A DNA stretch of 64,000 nt, from positions 806,001-870,000 of the forward strand of contig JACCEP010000001.1 in NCBI GenBank assembly GCA_013416395.1, in the 5' to 3' direction. The translations under genes and the position numbers were made by a program. This stretch comes from Alcaligenaceae bacterium. GTDB lineage: Bacteria > Pseudomonadota > Gammaproteobacteria > Burkholderiales > Burkholderiaceae_B. This document shows positions 485 through 9,755 of this stretch, piece after piece. How positions within the stretch are numbered: the stretch's first letter is position 1; each line of letters opens with the position of its first letter. A model generated the notes under the pieces. That model did not search any database. It saw only the letters and a list, made by a program, of their open reading frames with translations, and was not told the origin of the DNA.

Positions 485-923
485 TTCTATCGCTCCAAGT
501 AATTGGGTAAAGCCACCCGAATTTCCAAGATATAGCTGCAGCGCTCACCGGCTTTATTCTTTCATGCGACAAACCCAGGGGCAACAAATGAATACACAAG
601 CAAGGGTATTTGCTATGTGGGGTCGCTTGTTTTGATACATAACGCCCGTGGGTAACGATAGAGCGGAAACGTTTGATATTGCGGTTTGAACACTCAGCGG
701 TTAAAGACATTTGTCAGCCCCGCGCCTACGTGTGAAACATGATTTCGAGACTGATATTAACTATATGGCCGTGGCGGGGATATCGGCAGTAGATGATTTC
801 AATGTAAGCGAAAGCATCTGAGCGGGCTATATCCCTTTGTTCAAAAATGACGGCCATCAAGGTTCACCAGGCGTGCTTTGCCTACCATGAAATTGTTCTA
901 AACAACTTCATCTGGAGAATCAA
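485..923. other. Intergenic region upstream of the metal-export unit
   Basis: About 440 bases separate the divergent aldolase and HMA genes. No convincing coding frame is present: a 118-codon minus-strand frame here is a shifted-frame shadow of the aldolase. The right part holds two candidate binding sites, listed separately, and a TGGAG ribosome site just before the HMA gene. Confidence 0.5.
847..860 (+). promoter_or_regulatory. Possible FNR-type binding site
   Basis: ATGAC-GGCC-ATCAA has the TGA-N6-TCA core of the FNR consensus TTGAT-N4-ATCAA and lies about 65 bases before the HMA gene start. The regulator encoded at 3178 carries the E..SR recognition pattern of FNR, so autoregulation of this unit is plausible. 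A second small dyad, TTGTT-CTA-AACAA at 893-905, sits even closer to the start. Both are short and could be chance. Confidence 0.35.
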
Positions 924-1169
924 ATGAAAAAAGCCGTCCTCACCATGGAACCCTTCACCTGTCCTTCATGCATCAAAAAAATCGAGGGCACGCTGCTCAA
1001 GGTTGATGGTGTAAAGCACGCTAAGGTGCTCTTTAACGCGGGCAAGGTTCGTATCGAGTTCGATAGTTCGGTTACGAACGTCGACGCACTGGCAGATGTG
1101 GCCACTCGGTTGGGGTATCCCGTTCTCTCGACGAAAACGTCAAAAGACGTTGCGGTCGACACTGCTTAA
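924..1169 (+). CDS. Small heavy-metal-associated (HMA) domain protein
   Basis: An 81-residue, single-domain protein of the HMA/copper-chaperone type. The metal-binding loop reads TCPSC near residues 13-17, a variant of the usual MxCxxC, and the rest matches the fold (KKIEGTLLKVDGVKHAKV, then RLGYPV). It is expected to hand a soft metal ion to the ATPase encoded 55 bases downstream, in place of the HMA domain that this ATPase lacks. The ion (copper, zinc or cadmium) cannot be read from sequence. A GGAG ribosome site supports the start. Confidence 0.8.
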   Translation: MKKAVLTMEPFTCPSCIKKIEGTLLKVDGVKHAKVLFNAGKVRIEFDSSVTNVDALADVATRLGYPVLSTKTSKDVAVDTA

Positions 1170-1181
1170 CAACATGGAACA

Positions 1182-1200
1182 GGCCGGCCGGTGGCCGGCC
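1182..1200 (+). other. GC-rich intercistronic hairpin
   Basis: GGCCGGCC, a three-base loop, then GGCCGGCC again: a very stable stem between the HMA protein gene and the ATPase gene. There is no T-tract, so it is more likely a mRNA-processing or partial-attenuation element that sets the chaperone to ATPase ratio than a terminator. Confidence 0.5.
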
Positions 1201-1224
1201 CATCCATAGTTTGGAGGAATGGAA

Positions 1225-3117
1225 ATGATTCAGCTAAAAAACGCTCAAATTGCCGGTGCAACCGGGCTTCTGTTGCTGACCGCCCTTGCGCTGCATTGGT
1301 TGGGTCTGGCAGATCTAAAAAATTATGTCTTGATCGCATCGTCCATCTTCGCAGGCTACTTTATCGCCATCAAGGCGTTCAAGTCTTTGCGAATGAAGGC
1401 ATTTAGCATCGATCTTCTCGTCACGATTGCAGTGATCGGTGCATTGATCATTGGCGAGTATTTTGAAGCGGCTGCGGTCACGTTTTTGTTTGTTTTCGGT
1501 GCCTATCTCGAAACGCGCACCTTGGAGCAGACGCGTTCTTCGCTTAAAAGTCTGATCGATATGACGCCCACGGAGGCCACGGTTATCCGGCCTGAAGGGC
1601 ATGTCAGGATTCCAGCCGAAGATCTTGAAAAAGGCGACCGTGTATTGATCCGCTCAGGCGAGAAGGTAGCCATAGACGGTTCTGTACTTGCTGGGCAGGC
1701 GTTAATTACCGAAGCCGCTATCACCGGAGAATCTGTACCTGCTGACAAGCGTGTGGGTGACCATGTTTATAGTGGCACTGTCGTCACCAACGGCTACATC
1801 GAGGTTCTGGCCGAAAAAGTGGGAGATGACACCACGTTCTCCAAAATTGTGGAGCTTATTGAAGACGCTCAAGAGTCCAAGACCAAAACCCAGAAATTTC
1901 TGGATCGGTTCGCAAATATTTACACGCCTTCAATTGTGGTGCTGGCTGTGTTGGTCTATGCGATTTCGCAAGATGTCGAACTGGCCCTGACCTTTCTCGT
2001 CATTGCCTGCCCAGGTGCACTGGTGATTTCCGCGCCTGTTTCCATGGTGGCGGGCATCGGCAACGCCGCGCGCAATGGTGCGTTGGTCAAGGGCGGCGAG
2101 ATCATGGAAAAGCTCGCCAAGATCAATATGGTGGTGTTTGATAAAACCGGCACGCTAACAAAGGGTCGCCCCGAAGTCACTGACATAAAAGCATGGGCGG
2201 GTGATGAAAACCAGGTATTGCATCTGGCCGCGCAAGCCGAGGTGGCGTCTGAGCATCATCTTGGGCAGACCATCGTTGCTGAGGCCCAGAAACGCGGGCT
2301 GCTGCTTACGGATAAACCTGAAAATGCCGAAATTATTGAAGGCCAAGGCATGGCGGCCACCGTCGGCGGTAAGCATCTCGTCATCGGCACTAGAAAGCTG
2401 TTGGGCGCTCGTGGTATTGCCATTGACGCCTCTGCCCAAGACTATGCCGTCATGCGCGAAAAAGCCGGTAACACCGCAATTTTTGTCGCCATCGACGGAG
2501 TGTTGGTCGGCCTTATCGGCATCGCTGATCAGATCAAGCCCGAGGCTCGTGGCGCCATCGAACGCTTGAGAGTACAGGGAATTGAGAAAATCTACATGCT
2601 CACTGGCGACAACCGCCACGCCGCGCAACTGGTGGGTGATGAGTTGGGCCTGGATGCGGTCTATGCCGAACTACTGCCGCAAGAGAAGGTGGCCTGGATC
2701 AATAAACTGAAGGCGCAGGGCCTGCGGGTTGCCATGGTTGGTGACGGTATCAACGACGCACCGGCGCTTGCGACTGCAGATGTTGGTCTGGCAATGGGAA
2801 CGGGCGGCGCAGACATCACCATGGAGACTGCTGACGTCGTGCTCATGTCTGATCGGCTGGATCAGTTTGCGCATGCACAGGCGCTTGCCAAAGCCACTGT
2901 GCGCAACATGATGCAAAACACATTCTTTGCAGTGGCCACGGTGGTAATTTTGCTGGCTGGTGTGTTGCTGGGTAAAGTGTTCTTGGCCTCGGGTATGCTC
3001 ATCCATGAGGTCAGCGTGATATTGGTCATACTGAACGCCATTCGGCTTGTACGCTTTGGGCGCAAACGCACCGGGGCCACCACGCTGCCTGGTACGGTAC
3101 AGCAACAAAGGGCTTGA
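1225..3117 (+). CDS. P1B-type heavy-metal-translocating ATPase, atypical motif set
   Basis: A 630-residue inner-membrane metal pump without an N-terminal metal-binding domain. Seen in order: N-terminal membrane helices, the actuator loop with TGES, a transmembrane metal site C262-P-G264, the phosphorylation motif DKTGT with D306, and the hinge GDGINDAPAL near 506-515. Two family hallmarks differ: the membrane motif is CPG rather than CPC, and the conserved HP dipeptide of the nucleotide domain is H344-H345. The core catalytic Asp is intact, so the pump should be active. ATG 1225 is preferred over ATG 1219 because GGAGGA abuts the latter. The ion exported is uncertain. Confidence 0.88.
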   Translation: MIQLKNAQIAGATGLLLLTALALHWLGLADLKNYVLIASSIFAGYFIAIKAFKSLRMKAFSIDLLVTIAVIGALIIGEYFEAAAVTFLFVFGAYLETRTLEQTRSSLKSLIDMTPTEATVIRPEGHVRIPAEDLEKGDRVLIRSGEKVAIDGSVLAGQALITEAAITGESVPADKRVGDHVYSGTVVTNGYIEVLAEKVGDDTTFSKIVELIEDAQESKTKTQKFLDRFANIYTPSIVVLAVLVYAISQDVELALTFLVIACPGALVISAPVSMVAGIGNAARNGALVKGGEIMEKLAKINMVVFDKTGTLTKGRPEVTDIKAWAGDENQVLHLAAQAEVASEHHLGQTIVAEAQKRGLLLTDKPENAEIIEGQGMAATVGGKHLVIGTRKLLGARGIAIDASAQDYAVMREKAGNTAIFVAIDGVLVGLIGIADQIKPEARGAIERLRVQGIEKIYMLTGDNRHAAQLVGDELGLDAVYAELLPQEKVAWINKLKAQGLRVAMVGDGINDAPALATADVGLAMGTGGADITMETADVVLMSDRLDQFAHAQALAKATVRNMMQNTFFAVATVVILLAGVLLGKVFLASGMLIHEVSVILVILNAIRLVRFGRKRTGATTLPGTVQQQRA

Positions 3118-3134
3118 AGCAGGTAAGTCAACGC

Positions 3135-3157
3135 GACGCCTTTCGACGAAAGGCGTC
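3135..3157 (+). promoter_or_regulatory. Perfect 23-base palindrome upstream of the FNR-like gene
   Basis: GACGCCTTTCG, one central A, then CGAAAGGCGTC form a perfect dyad between the ATPase and the regulator gene. It lacks a T-tract, so it may be an operator or a hairpin limiting read-through into the regulator gene. Confidence 0.45.
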
Positions 3158-3177
3158 AAACGGAGCTAAAGCAAACC

Positions 3178-3882
3178 ATGGAACACTGCAACCATGTTCC
3201 GAACGAGCAGCACACAGAGCCCCTTCGTGAACTCTGTGTGTCGCTCGTTCCGATTTTTAATCATCTGCCACACAACGAGCTGGTCAATATTGCTGCTAAA
3301 GCGGCGATGCGTACAGTAGGGCGCAACGAGTTCATTCATCGTGCGGGTGAGCACTCTAATCAGTTATATATTGTTCACCAAGGCAAGGTTAAGGTTTACC
3401 GGCTTTCCGAAGACGGCAAGGAGCAACTCGTCCGCATACTGCAACCGGGTGACTTCACGGGGGAGCTTGCACTGTTCTCGCCCGGCCAGCATGACTCTTA
3501 TGCTGAGGCCACCGAAGATGCGCGCGTTTGCATCATTAGCCGCGACGATTTAAGTGCACTCATGCTGGAGCACCCAGAAATAGGTATGCATTTGCTTTCT
3601 GAGCTTGCACAACGACTGGGCAGCAGCGAAAAGCAAACGGCCGCCATTGCAACCGAGTCGATTAACGCACGTATTGTGCTTTATCTTGCAAGCCTGTCAG
3701 AACAGGCTAAGTCGCGCGATATACGATTGCCCATGAGCCGCAAAGATCTTGCGTCTTACCTGGGAACTTCGCCCGAAACAATTAGCCGACGTTTAAAAGA
3801 ATTTGAAGACGAGGGCTGGATAGTGCAAACAGGGCAGCGCGGTATACGAATTCATGACCTGGACGCCTTGCTGCTGCAGTAA
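3178..3882 (+). CDS. Crp/FNR family transcriptional regulator
   Basis: A 234-residue regulator: N-terminal cyclic-nucleotide-binding-type beta barrel (about 25-145), dimer helix, and a winged helix-turn-helix near 180-225. The recognition helix reads SPETISRRL, with the E..SR pattern of FNR, so a TTGAT-type half site is expected. FNR's four-cysteine iron-sulfur set is absent; only C4, C20 and C118 are present, with His around C4 (EHCNH). A thiol or direct metal response is therefore possible instead of oxygen sensing. It is the last gene of the HMA-ATPase unit and probably controls it. GGAG precedes the start by about 12 bases. Confidence 0.85.
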   Translation: MEHCNHVPNEQHTEPLRELCVSLVPIFNHLPHNELVNIAAKAAMRTVGRNEFIHRAGEHSNQLYIVHQGKVKVYRLSEDGKEQLVRILQPGDFTGELALFSPGQHDSYAEATEDARVCIISRDDLSALMLEHPEIGMHLLSELAQRLGSSEKQTAAIATESINARIVLYLASLSEQAKSRDIRLPMSRKDLASYLGTSPETISRRLKEFEDEGWIVQTGQRGIRIHDLDALLLQ

Positions 3883-4088
3883 GCTGTGTTTTTTACGCGC
3901 GAAACGCACCAAAGCCAGAGCGCTATACTGAATTGTCGGCACACCCCTGATGATGAGCCCGTGTCTACCCGTACCGGTCCATGGGGTTTTGGCCCCGTCT
4001 TCATAACTATTTTTGAAGACAAGAGCCTCGGCAAGCTTGTAATCAATGTTGCTGAGCACTGAACTCATTTCCTGCAACAGGAGTCCGT
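3883..4088. other. Intergenic region
   Basis: No gene is seen. The region holds a GGGG-TTTTGG-CCCC hairpin near 3983-3996 and a GTCTTC/GAAGAC inverted repeat around 4000-4021 that might end transcription of the regulator gene. A CAGGAG ribosome site lies just before the next start. Confidence 0.35.
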
Positions 4089-4766
4089 ATGAATATACTC
4101 ATGGTCTTAACCTCGCACGACCAGTTGGGCGATACCGGTGAAAAAACCGGTTTCTGGCTGGAAGAATTTGCAGCGCCTTACTATGTGCTGAAAGACGCGG
4201 GTGCCAGCCTGACCTTGGCCTCGCCACAGGGTGGCCAACCGCCTGTTGACCCCAAAAGCGATGCACCTGATGCCCAAACCGACGCCACTCGTCGCTTCAA
4301 AGCTGACCCCGAAGCGCAGGCCGCGCTGGGCGCTACATTAAAACTGGCCGACGTACGCGCCAGCGATTTTGATGCTGTCTTTTACCCCGGAGGTCATGGC
4401 CCCCTGTGGGATCTGGCCGAAGACAAATCATCCATCGCCCTCATCGAAACCATGCATGCGGCAGGCAAACCCGTGGCTGCTGTTTGCCACGCGCCGGGTG
4501 TGCTGCGCCATGTCAAGGGAAAGGACGGCAGCTTCCTGGTTAAAGGCAAGAAGGTAACTGGCTTCACCAATACTGAGGAAGAGGCCGTTGGCTTGACCAA
4601 GGTTGTGCCATTTCTGGTTGAAGACGTATTAAAGGCTAACGGCGGCGTCTATTCCAAGGCTGGCGATTGGGAGTCTTACGTGCTCACGGATGGCACCTTG
4701 ATTACAGGCCAGAACCCAGCTTCGTCTGAGGCTGTAGCCAAAGCGCTGATCAAAATGTTGGCGTAG
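4089..4766 (+). CDS. DJ-1/PfpI family protein, glyoxalase III / Hsp31-like
   Basis: A 225-residue type 1 glutamine-amidotransferase-like protein. It begins with MNILMVLTSHD, has the conserved acidic residue in TGEKTGFWLEE, a FYPGGHGP turn, and the nucleophile elbow AVCHAPG with C133. This pattern belongs to the branch that includes Hsp31-type glyoxalases and deglycases, which convert methylglyoxal to lactate without cofactor or repair glycated proteins in the cytosol. It stands alone, with its own ribosome site (CAGGAG). Whether it is a glyoxalase, chaperone or peptidase cannot be settled from sequence. Confidence 0.85.
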   Translation: MNILMVLTSHDQLGDTGEKTGFWLEEFAAPYYVLKDAGASLTLASPQGGQPPVDPKSDAPDAQTDATRRFKADPEAQAALGATLKLADVRASDFDAVFYPGGHGPLWDLAEDKSSIALIETMHAAGKPVAAVCHAPGVLRHVKGKDGSFLVKGKKVTGFTNTEEEAVGLTKVVPFLVEDVLKANGGVYSKAGDWESYVLTDGTLITGQNPASSEAVAKALIKMLA

Positions 4767-7789: not shown

Positions 7790-7852
7790 ACGGCTTACTT
7801 ACCATGCAAGTCTTTCGAGGCATTCTCGCTTCGTCCCAAGGAGTGCATGCAC

Positions 7853-8683
7853 ATGGATACCGTGATACGCGTCGAAACGCTGAACAAAAGTTTCGGGGGC
7901 AAGAAGGCTCTCGATGGCCTGGACCTGAACGTAAACGCGGGTGAAATGGTTGCCTTGATCGGGCCTTCCGGCTCGGGCAAATCTACACTGCTGCGCCACC
8001 TGAGCGGTCTGGCTTGTGCAGACCGGGGTGAGACCGGGCGGGTTTGCGTGCTGGGTCGGCCCGTACAGAACAGAGGCCGCCTCGACAAAGATGTACGCCA
8101 GTTGCGCGCCGAGATCGGATACATCTTCCAGCAGTTCAATCTGATTGGCCGCATCAGCGTGCTTGGCAATGTGCTGATGGGGCGACTGGGACGCATACCG
8201 CGCTGGCGTGGAACCCTGGGCCGTTTTACGGCGCAAGACAGGGCGCTGGCCATGGCTGCGCTCGAGCGCGTAGGCATGGCCGACTATGCGCGCCAGCGCG
8301 CCTCGACGCTGTCGGGCGGACAGCAACAGCGCGTTGCCATCGCCCGGGCGCTCACACAGCAAGCCGAAATCATCCTCGCTGATGAGCCCATCGCCTCACT
8401 GGACCCGGAGTCTGCCCGCAATGTCATGGATATTTTGCGTGATATCAACCAGACAGATGGCAAGACCGTGGTGGTGACCTTGCATCAGGTCGATTACGCC
8501 ACGCGTTATTGCGAGCGCGTCGTGGCACTCAAAGCCGGCCGCATCCATTTTGACGGTTCGGTGGCCGCGTTAAGCGGCCCGTTCTTGAACCAGCTGTATG
8601 GCGGCGATCTTGATGCGTCACTGCTGACGCCTTCCAGAGCCGTGCTGCACGTCAACCCGGCACTTGAACTGGCTGCGGCCTGA
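7853..8683 (+). CDS. phnC: Phosphonate ABC transporter ATP-binding protein
   Basis: ATPase of the phosphonate/phosphite importer. Residues 37-45 form the Walker A motif GPSGSGKST, 153-160 the signature LSGGQQQR, and ILADEP near 174-179 the Walker B. At 276 residues it has the usual length. ATG 7853 is chosen over ATG 7847 because AAGGAG is nine bases before it and only three before the other. First gene of the phn operon; it pairs with PhnE and PhnD. Confidence 0.93.
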
Positions 8684-8712
8684 GCGTCGGTTTTTCTGAA
8701 TTCATCATGTGA

Positions 8713-8728
8713 CGCCGGAGTGCCGGCG
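8713..8728 (+). other. Hairpin between phnC and phnD
   Basis: CGCCGG-AGTG-CCGGCG, a six-bp GC stem just before the phnD ribosome site. Together with the hairpin after phnD it may stabilise the binding-protein part of the message. Confidence 0.4.
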
Positions 8729-8750
8729 CACCAATCTCTGGAGTATCGAT

Positions 8751-9755
8751 ATGTTTAGTCGCATGCGTAAAGCCGTTATGGTTTCGGCACTGGTCGGCGC
8801 AGGGCTGTGCACAACAGCTGCCGCCGAATCACCGGCCACCCTCAACTTCGGGATAATTTCGACGGAGTCTTCACAGAATCTGAAGGAGAATTGGACGCCT
8901 TTTCTGGATGACATGAGCGCCAAGCTGGGCATGGAAATAAAGGCGTTTTTCGCGCCCGACTATGCCGGCATTATTCAGGGCATGCGCTTCGATAAAGTGG
9001 ATGTGGCCTGGTACGGCAACAAGTCTGCCATGGAAGCCGTAGACCGCGCAGGTGGCGAAGTGTTTGCGCAAACTGTGGCAAATGATGGTGCTCCAGGCTA
9101 TTGGAGTCTTCTGATTGCACACAAAGACAGCACGATTAACTCGGTCGAAGACATGCTGGCCAAGGCGAGCGAGCTCACGTTTGGCAATGGTGACCCCAAC
9201 TCTACCTCGGGTTATCTGGTGCCAGGCTATTACGTATTCGCAAAAAACAACGTGCTGCCTGCCAACATCTTTCGCCGCACACTTAACGCAAGCCATGAGG
9301 TCAACGCCTTGAGTGTGGCCAACCGACAGGTCGATGTGGCCACCTTCAACACCGAAGGCATGGACCGGCTCAAACAAACCAACCCCAAGAAAGCGGCCCA
9401 ACTCAAGATCATCTGGAAGTCACCCCTGATTCCTTCTGACCCCATTGTCTGGCGCAAGAACCTGCCTGAAGCAACCAAAACCAAGCTGGGCGAGTTCTTT
9501 GCCAACTACGGTGCAAACGAACAGGAAATGAAGGTGTTGGCAGGGCTGCAGTGGGGCAAATTTCGTGCATCGAGCGATGACCAACTGTTGCCCATACGTC
9601 AGTTGGCGCTGTTCAAGGAACGCAGCCAGGTTCTGACTGACAGCGTGCTCGACGAGAACGCCAGGCAAGAGCAACTGGCGAAAATCGATGCCGCCCTTGA
9701 AACGCTTTCCGAGCGCATGGCTGCCGTCGAAAAGAAAGTGGCCAGCGCCCACTGA
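8751..9755 (+). CDS. phnD: Phosphonate ABC transporter periplasmic binding protein
   Basis: A 334-residue periplasmic protein with a signal peptide (about residues 1-25, ending TTAAA before ESPATLNFG). Conserved phnD-family stretches include SQNLKENW, APDYAGIIQGMR, VAWYGNKSAMEA and FGNGDPNSTSGYLVPGYY. It delivers phosphonates to PhnE/PhnC. ATG 8751 follows TGGAG; an earlier in-frame ATG at 8709 would spoil the signal peptide. The C-terminal region is helical and Glu/Lys rich. Confidence 0.93.
   Translation: MFSRMRKAVMVSALVGAGLCTTAAAESPATLNFGIISTESSQNLKENWTPFLDDMSAKLGMEIKAFFAPDYAGIIQGMRFDKVDVAWYGNKSAMEAVDRAGGEVFAQTVANDGAPGYWSLLIAHKDSTINSVEDMLAKASELTFGNGDPNSTSGYLVPGYYVFAKNNVLPANIFRRTLNASHEVNALSVANRQVDVATFNTEGMDRLKQTNPKKAAQLKIIWKSPLIPSDPIVWRKNLPEATKTKLGEFFANYGANEQEMKVLAGLQWGKFRASSDDQLLPIRQLALFKERSQVLTDSVLDENARQEQLAKIDAALETLSERMAAVEKKVASAH

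Follow-up and report, generated by a model that had tools for sequence, protein, structure and literature searches.

A stretch of 64,000 nucleotides from the genome of an Alcaligenaceae bacterium (hereafter, the window; GenBank assembly GCA_013416395.1, contig JACCEP010000001.1, positions 806,001 to 870,000 of the forward strand) carries, close to its beginning, a three-gene unit that encodes a stand-alone HMA domain protein, a P1B ATPase with a Cys-Pro-Gly (CPG) motif in the ion-binding helix and a Crp/Fnr-family regulator. The unit is real and conserved: the pump belongs to a distinct clade of CPG pumps, the neighboring regulators share two invariant cysteines, and an FNR-type box recurs upstream of the HMA gene at a fixed distance from a -10-like hexamer. 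Judging from the sequences of these elements, the regulator probably switches the unit on via the conserved DNA site. We rate the chances as even that the unit as a whole is a divalent transition-metal exporter run by its own regulator.

Organization of the three-gene unit

All three genes are located on the plus strand: the HMA gene at 924..1169 (81 aa, with a TCPSC loop comprising C13 and C16), the ATPase gene at 1219..3117 (632 aa) and the regulator gene at 3178..3882 (234 aa), with gaps of 49 bases between the HMA and ATPase genes and 60 bases between the ATPase and regulator genes. Both this layout and the combination of a CRP/FNR regulator, an HMA protein and a P1B pump had been described in an earlier note on the same DNA, and Pfam and NCBIfam are concordant on the three families (PF00403, E 3.8e-11, for the HMA protein; TIGR01525 and Pfam, along with the trees described below, for the ATPase; PF00027 and PF13545 for the regulator). 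Pfam detects no HMA domain in the window ATPase, in agreement with the view of the note that this domain is supplied by the 81-residue TCPSC partner. The ATPase contains the DKTGT, TGES and GDGIND motifs and matches the heavy-metal subfamily profile TIGR01525 with 560 bits against a cut-off of 346, which places it among the P1B ATPases; the ZntA model also matches. The top NCBIfam matches of the HMA protein are CopZ and MerP, every one of them below the cut-off. Altogether, the E1-E2 ATPase family has six matches in the 5.08-Mb genome to which the window belongs.

A second ATG is present at 1225, and this is the likelier start of the ATPase (then 630 aa long) because the GGAGG at 1212-1216 is better spaced for 1225 than for 1219. 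The CPG and His-His (HH) motifs are in place as noted earlier, but the residue numbers given then (262/264 and 344/345) fit the start at 1225; counted from the ATG at 1219, the motifs are C264-P-G266 and H346-H347. Downstream of the unit, after a terminator-like hairpin at 3867-3883, there is a DJ-1/PfpI family gene on the same strand (4089-4766) that probably lies outside the unit.

The CPG pumps form a clade

The CPG codons occupy positions 2008..2016 (plus strand), within a segment encoding ACPGALVIS, and C264 is the sole cysteine of the window ATPase. A phylogenetic tree was constructed for 94 pumps, namely 70 with CPG, 16 with CPC, 5 with SPC and single representatives with CPH, TPC and GAC, including Escherichia coli ZntA and CopA and the SPC pump of pMOL30; L120, L122, L128 and L129 were omitted as broken, containing runs of N, or duplicate. 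In this tree, the 70 CPG pumps are split off by one branch (SH-aLRT 98), with none of the 24 reference pumps inside. Another tree, of 50 rows, was built without four long-branch references (L004, L027, L117 at 8044 and L148 at 7108) and without 40 of the 70 CPG rows; here, the 30 CPG rows are joined with support of 100/99, the SPC group (4 rows, 100/100) is separate from the CPG group, and the P1B-1 (9 rows), P1B-2 (7 rows) and SPC groups are each supported by at least 98/96.

The HH codons (2254..2259, plus strand; SEHHLG), which replace the usual His-Pro (HP), tell a different story. Among the 70 CPG rows, HH is found in 29, HP in 40 and HL in one, with four state changes on the tree, so the earlier suggestion that CPG and HH together mark a separate clade survives in its CPG part, whereas HH is labile and was dropped from the signature. 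The dipeptide is part of the SEHP-type motif that follows DKTGT in the nucleotide-binding domain of P1B pumps and hence bears little on the transported ion.

A scan of the genome contigs yielded 45 loci, of which 44 (L037-L080) encode CPG pumps and one (L081) a distant CPC pump that is not counted as a member; the CPG loci were chosen by similarity and motif, so their number does not amount to a survey. At the DNA level, the CPGALVI[S] pattern matched 19 of the 398 Bacillota genomes, the search center included, and 2 of the 369 genomes of the window's class, namely that of the window itself and G568 (L131), the latter rejected as a false positive because no pump was found there. A pattern was matched by 24 stretches of viral contigs, none of which encodes a relative, and PADLOC gave no match for the pump. 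In a P1B-like ATPase of a relative (L027:1387-3327), the alignment places GAC, instead of CPC or SPC, in the ion helix, and the last helix contains IHVSSELV.

Conservation, spread and origin of the unit

For the counts of loci, L037 and L132 (the same relative, at 97% identity), L111 (overlapping L086), L128 (on the contig of L059) and pump pieces shorter than 250 residues were excluded, and L146-L150 were kept outside the regulator, upstream-box and locus counts. HMA proteins were scored at a limit of 25 bits, so that L077, short by 0.2, counts as lacking one, and L086 was scored as regulator-less although its regulator sits just past the stretch. With these definitions, an HMA gene is found within 5 kb of the CPG pump in 66 of 68 loci, and a regulator scoring above 100 bits in 54 of 68, across two phyla. 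When only loci flanked by over 2.5 kb in both directions are considered, the HMA gene is present in all 49 and the regulator in 39. Thus, the pump is usually, although not always, found beside this type of regulator, 10 of the 49 well-flanked loci being without one. The regulator-less loci include those of an alphaproteobacterium (L087), a haloarchaeon (L088) and the close relatives L039, L051, L054, L058 and L071. In L039, the unit appears to be decaying, with the 3' end of the pump gene out of frame, the regulator not found and the upstream box intact. The recurrence, in Alcaligenaceae and Bacillota, of the CPG motif, the HMA partner, the regulator cysteines C20 and C118 and the upstream FNR-type box is more than chance would be expected to produce.

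The closest pump among named records comes from Allopusillimonas ginsengisoli, with 97% identity. Among 60 relatives, a pump more than 70% identical is present in three (97, 73 and 73%), the others have at most 42%, and in five nothing reached the limit that was applied. In the 94-row tree, 13 Alcaligenaceae-type pumps and seven pumps from Bacillus and Paenibacillus constitute one group (20 rows, support 99) that is nested in a wider group of Bacillota pumps (28 rows, 97). Given this nesting and the patchy spread among the relatives, transfer from Bacillota into Alcaligenaceae would be the simplest reading. No account of a CPG clade of P1B pumps or of this unit was found among the titles and abstract openings of the matches listed for the open-licence literature, which is not a claim of absence from print.

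An FNR-type box and the inferred promoter

The predicted FNR-type operator of the window, ATGACGGCCATCAA (847..860, plus strand), has its center 70 bases upstream of the HMA start codon and agrees with TTGAT-N4-ATCAA at 8 of 10 positions. Taken alone, this box is within the reach of chance, 8 matches being attained in 16 of 100 shuffles (the start codons in this test, as in the comparison of regulators below, were set by a script rule). The comparison was extended to 63 of 66 upstream regions of up to 250 bases before the HMA gene, after removal of the near-identical L042, L060 and L079. The exact pattern TTGAY-N4-RTCAA occurs in 34 of these regions (two of which, L086 and L112, have the same sequence surrounding the box), compared to a mean of 0.135 and a maximum of 2 in 200 dinucleotide shuffles. 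In 32 of 35 cases, the window counted, a hexamer that agrees with TATAAT at 4 or more of its 6 positions is located 22 bases after the box, whereas no other offset between 14 and 33 accounts for more than 13. The hexamer of the window, TACCAT (883..888, plus strand), has this same offset of 22 bases. Under a relaxed pattern, all 14 regions from Alcaligenaceae and one Brachymonas metagenome-assembled genome (MAG) contain such a box, mostly TTGTC-N4-RTCAA, at 66-73 bases from the HMA start codon; the hexamer follows at 22 bases in 8 of the regions and, by reading of the sequences, one base farther away in the remaining 6. The regulator-less L039, L051, L054, L058 and L071 still carry the box. 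A palindrome immediately 5' of the HMA start, TTGTT-CTA-AACAA, was considered as the operator and set aside; the aligned upstream regions keep 847-860 instead.

The 22-base offset would put the center of the box at -41.5, with transcription of the window unit starting near 895; a plain sigma-70 scan detected no promoter in the HMA upstream region of the window. This position is the one from which FNR activates class II promoters, an FF-41.5 promoter being called class II in PMC4505428. Crp/FNR control of the unit, as envisaged in the earlier note, is accordingly backed by an FNR-type box at what appears to be a class II position, and the predicted promoter logic can be considered well supported.

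Could the regulator be a chance neighbor that does not control the unit at all? The 10 well-flanked CPG loci without a nearby regulator are what one would expect in this case, and so are 12 loci among L116-L130 that encode the pump and the HMA protein and throughout which an exact box is lacking, which implies that control differs there or that the site has changed. Against this stand the adjacency in 54 of 68 loci from two phyla, the correspondence between the E..SR recognition helix of the regulator and an FNR-type box whose spacing is fixed, and the presence of a separate box before each gene of the Enterococcus faecium cluster (see below). Hence, chance neighborhood appears extremely improbable.

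Two invariant cysteines in the regulator

The regulator was compared with its counterparts in a set of 56 sequences, from which those under 100 bits, L128 and L132 were left out. The E..SR recognition helix is present in all 56 (PETISRR in the window), and the AlphaFold2 model of the window protein adopts the Crp/Fnr fold with a mean predicted local distance difference test score (pLDDT) of 88.3, dropping to 45 over residues 1-10, which include C4, and to 62 over residues 11-20, which include C20. Both the helix and the cysteine content, exactly residues 4, 20 and 118, are as the note had listed them. The iron-sulfur cluster of E. coli FNR is held by cysteines 20, 23, 29 and 122. C20 of the window protein (codon 3235..3237, plus strand) aligns with FNR C29, and C118 (codon 3529..3531, plus strand) with FNR C122; all 56 regulators have both cysteines, at a spacing of 98 residues in 55 and 97 in one, whereas C4 is not conserved among the relatives. 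The alignment confirms the claim that two of the four cluster cysteines of FNR are without counterparts. Thus, the window protein shares with FNR the Crp/Fnr fold, the E..SR helix, the TTGAT-type box and the cysteines at C29 and C122 and differs from it in the two cysteines without counterparts and in the linked target, here a metal-pump operon.

Because C29 and C122 of FNR ligate the same cluster, C20 and C118 should, by analogy, be near each other in the fold. DNA binding would be set at these two cysteines, either by a dithiol/disulfide change or by a bound metal. Sensing of metal or thiol state instead of oxygen, as the note surmised, is plausible; for the thiol pair itself as the signal, the reading that we favor, we put the chances at about even. 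The FLP protein of Lactobacillus casei reportedly functions as a disulfide switch, and in two regulators from Lactobacillales (L089 and L111), the counterparts of C20 and C118 are the only cysteines. More generally, two-cysteine FNR-like proteins have been described in Gram-positive bacteria, among them FlpS of Streptococcus suis, which activates arginine deiminase genes (PMC5039431, excerpt); the likeness of the window regulator to FLP and FlpS is by description, and the FlpS target differs.

An alternative is that the regulator senses oxygen or NO with an iron-sulfur cluster as FNR does, and the pump exports iron freed from broken clusters. The shared fold and box type, the invariance of two FNR ligand positions, and the flavodiiron and hemerythrin-domain neighbors described below all fit this scenario. 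Furthermore, between two and four cysteines precede the C20 position in 25 of the 56 regulators (two in 18, three in 4 and four in 3), so that a cluster is possible for these, and FlpA of Lactococcus lactis is reported, in the same excerpt (PMC5039431), to contain an oxygen-labile cluster with N-terminal non-cysteine ligands. However, there is no cysteine before this position in 9 of the 56 regulators and a single one in 22, and C4 of the window protein falls in a low-confidence stretch of the model. We therefore consider cluster-based sensing unlikely. The NCBIfam CRP model scores 87.8 bits on the regulator, under the cut-off of 266, and a PADLOC match to an Effector/TIR model (E 2.2e-11, residues 37-186) was taken to reflect the shared cyclic-nucleotide-binding fold.

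The ion site

The last membrane helix of the window pump contains H596-E597 (codons 3004..3009, plus strand; HEVSV) in the alignment columns occupied by HEGxT in P1B-4 pumps. Across the three columns compared, His, Glu and Ser are found in 67 of the 70 CPG pumps and in 5 of 5 SPC pumps; the first of these columns is occupied by Asp in the P1B-2 rows and by Met in the P1B-1 rows. P1B-1 pumps (CopA) combine CPC with a Met/Ser pattern in the last helix and P1B-2 pumps (ZntA/CadA) combine it with Asp; with CPG and His-Glu, the window pump falls outside both sets of rows, and neither does it qualify as P1B-4 (sCoaT, CzcP), given that it lacks SPC and the full HEGxT, with Val in place of both Gly and Thr, and is positioned outside the SPC clade. 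With the P1B-4 ATPases (sCoaT, the CzcP-like pumps and PmtA, to which PfeT and FrvA can be added), the pump shares the P1B architecture and the His, Glu and Ser of the last helix; CPG instead of SPC, the two Val substitutions, the separate clade, the free HMA partner and the FNR-like regulator set it apart. With E. coli ZntA (P1B-2), it shares the P1B core and matches to the ZntA and Cd-subfamily models and differs in having CPG, His-Glu in place of Asp, no fused HMA domain and a separate phylogenetic position. The CPG clade therefore looks P1B-4-like in one half of the ion site and different in the other half, and the shifted ion specificity proposed in the earlier note is compatible with this combination. 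For sCoaT, the ion site has been proposed to consist of SPC and HEGxT, with His657 crucial (PMC8880997, excerpt), and bacterial P1B-4 pumps have been described as broad in specificity, with export of Fe2+ under iron load (PMC10654040, excerpt).

Lactobacillales clusters and the neighborhoods of CPG pumps

In plasmids of Lactobacillales, genes for the ATPase, the HMA protein, Dps and the regulator are clustered in varying order, with no annotated regulator in L150 and no annotated Dps in L146. All six clusters examined have a box before both the ATPase and the HMA genes. L147 and L148, near-identical clusters from Enterococcus faecium and Carnobacterium plasmids, contain four boxes, one each before the Dps, regulator, HMA and ATPase genes; in three other clusters, the Dps gene is downstream of the HMA gene on the same strand. 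All 16 such boxes are followed, at the 22-base offset, by a hexamer with 4 to 6 matches, which two extra boxes in L149 and L150 lack. Genes linked to iron or oxygen are found near copies of the unit as well: VIT1/CCC1 in Leuconostoc, FetB in Carnobacterium and, in clostridial and other Bacillota loci, flavodiiron-type genes near 8, hemerythrin-type genes near 5 and DUF438-hemerythrin genes near 4 others (one representative of each was tested). These neighbors come mostly from related genomes and thus represent few events.

Taken together, the last-helix His-Glu shared with P1B-4, the boxes before Dps genes and the iron- and oxygen-linked neighbors point to a P1B-4-like pump for Fe(II), our favored metal, with a probability that we place somewhat short of even; Co(II) or Zn(II) would be the next choices of cargo. 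A resistance unit for soft metals (Zn/Cd/Pb or Cu/Ag), in which the metal would bind directly to C20 and C118 and thereby render the regulator an activator, with the HMA protein delivering the same metal to the pump, is the principal competitor. Copies of the unit reside beside ArsR and CadD in E. faecium, mercuric reductase and a CPC ATPase in Chelativorans, and two CPC ATPases in Castellaniella; the best matches of the HMA protein, CopZ and MerP, although below their cut-offs, also fit this view, and the NCBIfam Cd (486.7 versus 313.5) and Cu (404.4 versus 397) subfamily models both exceed their cut-offs on the window pump. The pump, however, contains a single cysteine, in CPG rather than CPC, its last helix has His-Glu and not the Asp of P1B-2 or the Met of P1B-1, and Dps shares the boxes in Lactobacillales. 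On balance, we regard the soft-metal unit as possible but doubtful.

The window's own genome encodes a second regulator of this type (L145:4091-7472, contig C1), which is 57% identical, shares the same cysteine pair region and is adjacent to a rhodanese and a Sulf_transp protein; a box-like TTGGCGGAAATCAA is located between these genes, before the rhodanese gene. This context raises the possibility of a sulfur-related signal, in which case the regulator would sense reactive sulfur species or electrophiles through C20 and C118, and the pump would respond to thiol stress. A thioredoxin gene near the Leuconostoc cluster points in the same direction, as do small thioredoxin-like genes (GCPTCARL, identified by reading only) that adjoin the HMA gene and the ATPase in L123, L124 and L130. 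But the paralogue is another gene and its signal may differ, and no sulfur gene was recognized among the recurrent pump neighbors listed, so this explanation seems to us even less probable than a cluster-based sensor. Elsewhere in the window, at 7847-9755, a gene for an ABC transporter ATP-binding protein is followed by one for a periplasmic binding protein, a pair that, by reading only, resembles a phosphonate-type uptake system.

Proposed mechanism and implications

The mechanism that we favor can be outlined as follows. The ATPase would bind the ion in the membrane via C264 and H596-E597, a P1B-4-like site in which SPC is replaced by CPG, and export it at the expense of ATP, and the separate HMA protein would serve as a soluble metal carrier or a load sensor. 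The regulator would be an FNR-fold activator that retains two of the four sensing cysteines of FNR, C20 and C118; its active dimer, bound to the box at 847-860, would activate, from -41.5, a co-transcribed HMA-ATPase-regulator operon, its own gene included.

Several observations weigh against an iron exporter governed in this way. The window box has one imperfect half, 12 loci among L116-L130 are without the exact box, and a nearby regulator is missing from 10 of the 49 well-flanked loci. The best matches of the regulator among PDB structures are cAMP-type CRP proteins, with FNR appearing only from rank 15, and its paralogue sits beside a rhodanese and a sulfur transporter, not a pump. With regard to the metal, the Cd and Cu subfamily models are above their cut-offs, some copies have soft-metal genes as neighbors, the iron- and oxygen-linked neighbors stem from few, related lineages, and iron is not usually handled by free HMA carriers.

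With these reservations, we tentatively propose, as a broader and distinctly less assured interpretation than that of a self-regulated divalent-metal exporter, that the CPG pumps are an unnamed Fe(II)-export subgroup of the P1B ATPases, characterized by a Cys-His-Glu ion site and an unfused HMA partner, that their two-cysteine FNR-like neighbors are dedicated thiol-based activators of pump and Dps genes, and that this redox-gated iron-efflux regulon spread from Bacillota to Alcaligenaceae and to Lactobacillales plasmids. A pump clade with an altered ion motif is linked here, via a promoter defined by sequence, to a class of regulators whose signal is debated. The Cys-Pro-Gly/His-Glu site would offer a natural test of ion choice in P1B ATPases and, if the metal is indeed Fe(II), the unit would represent a redox-switched iron-export regulon that includes Dps.

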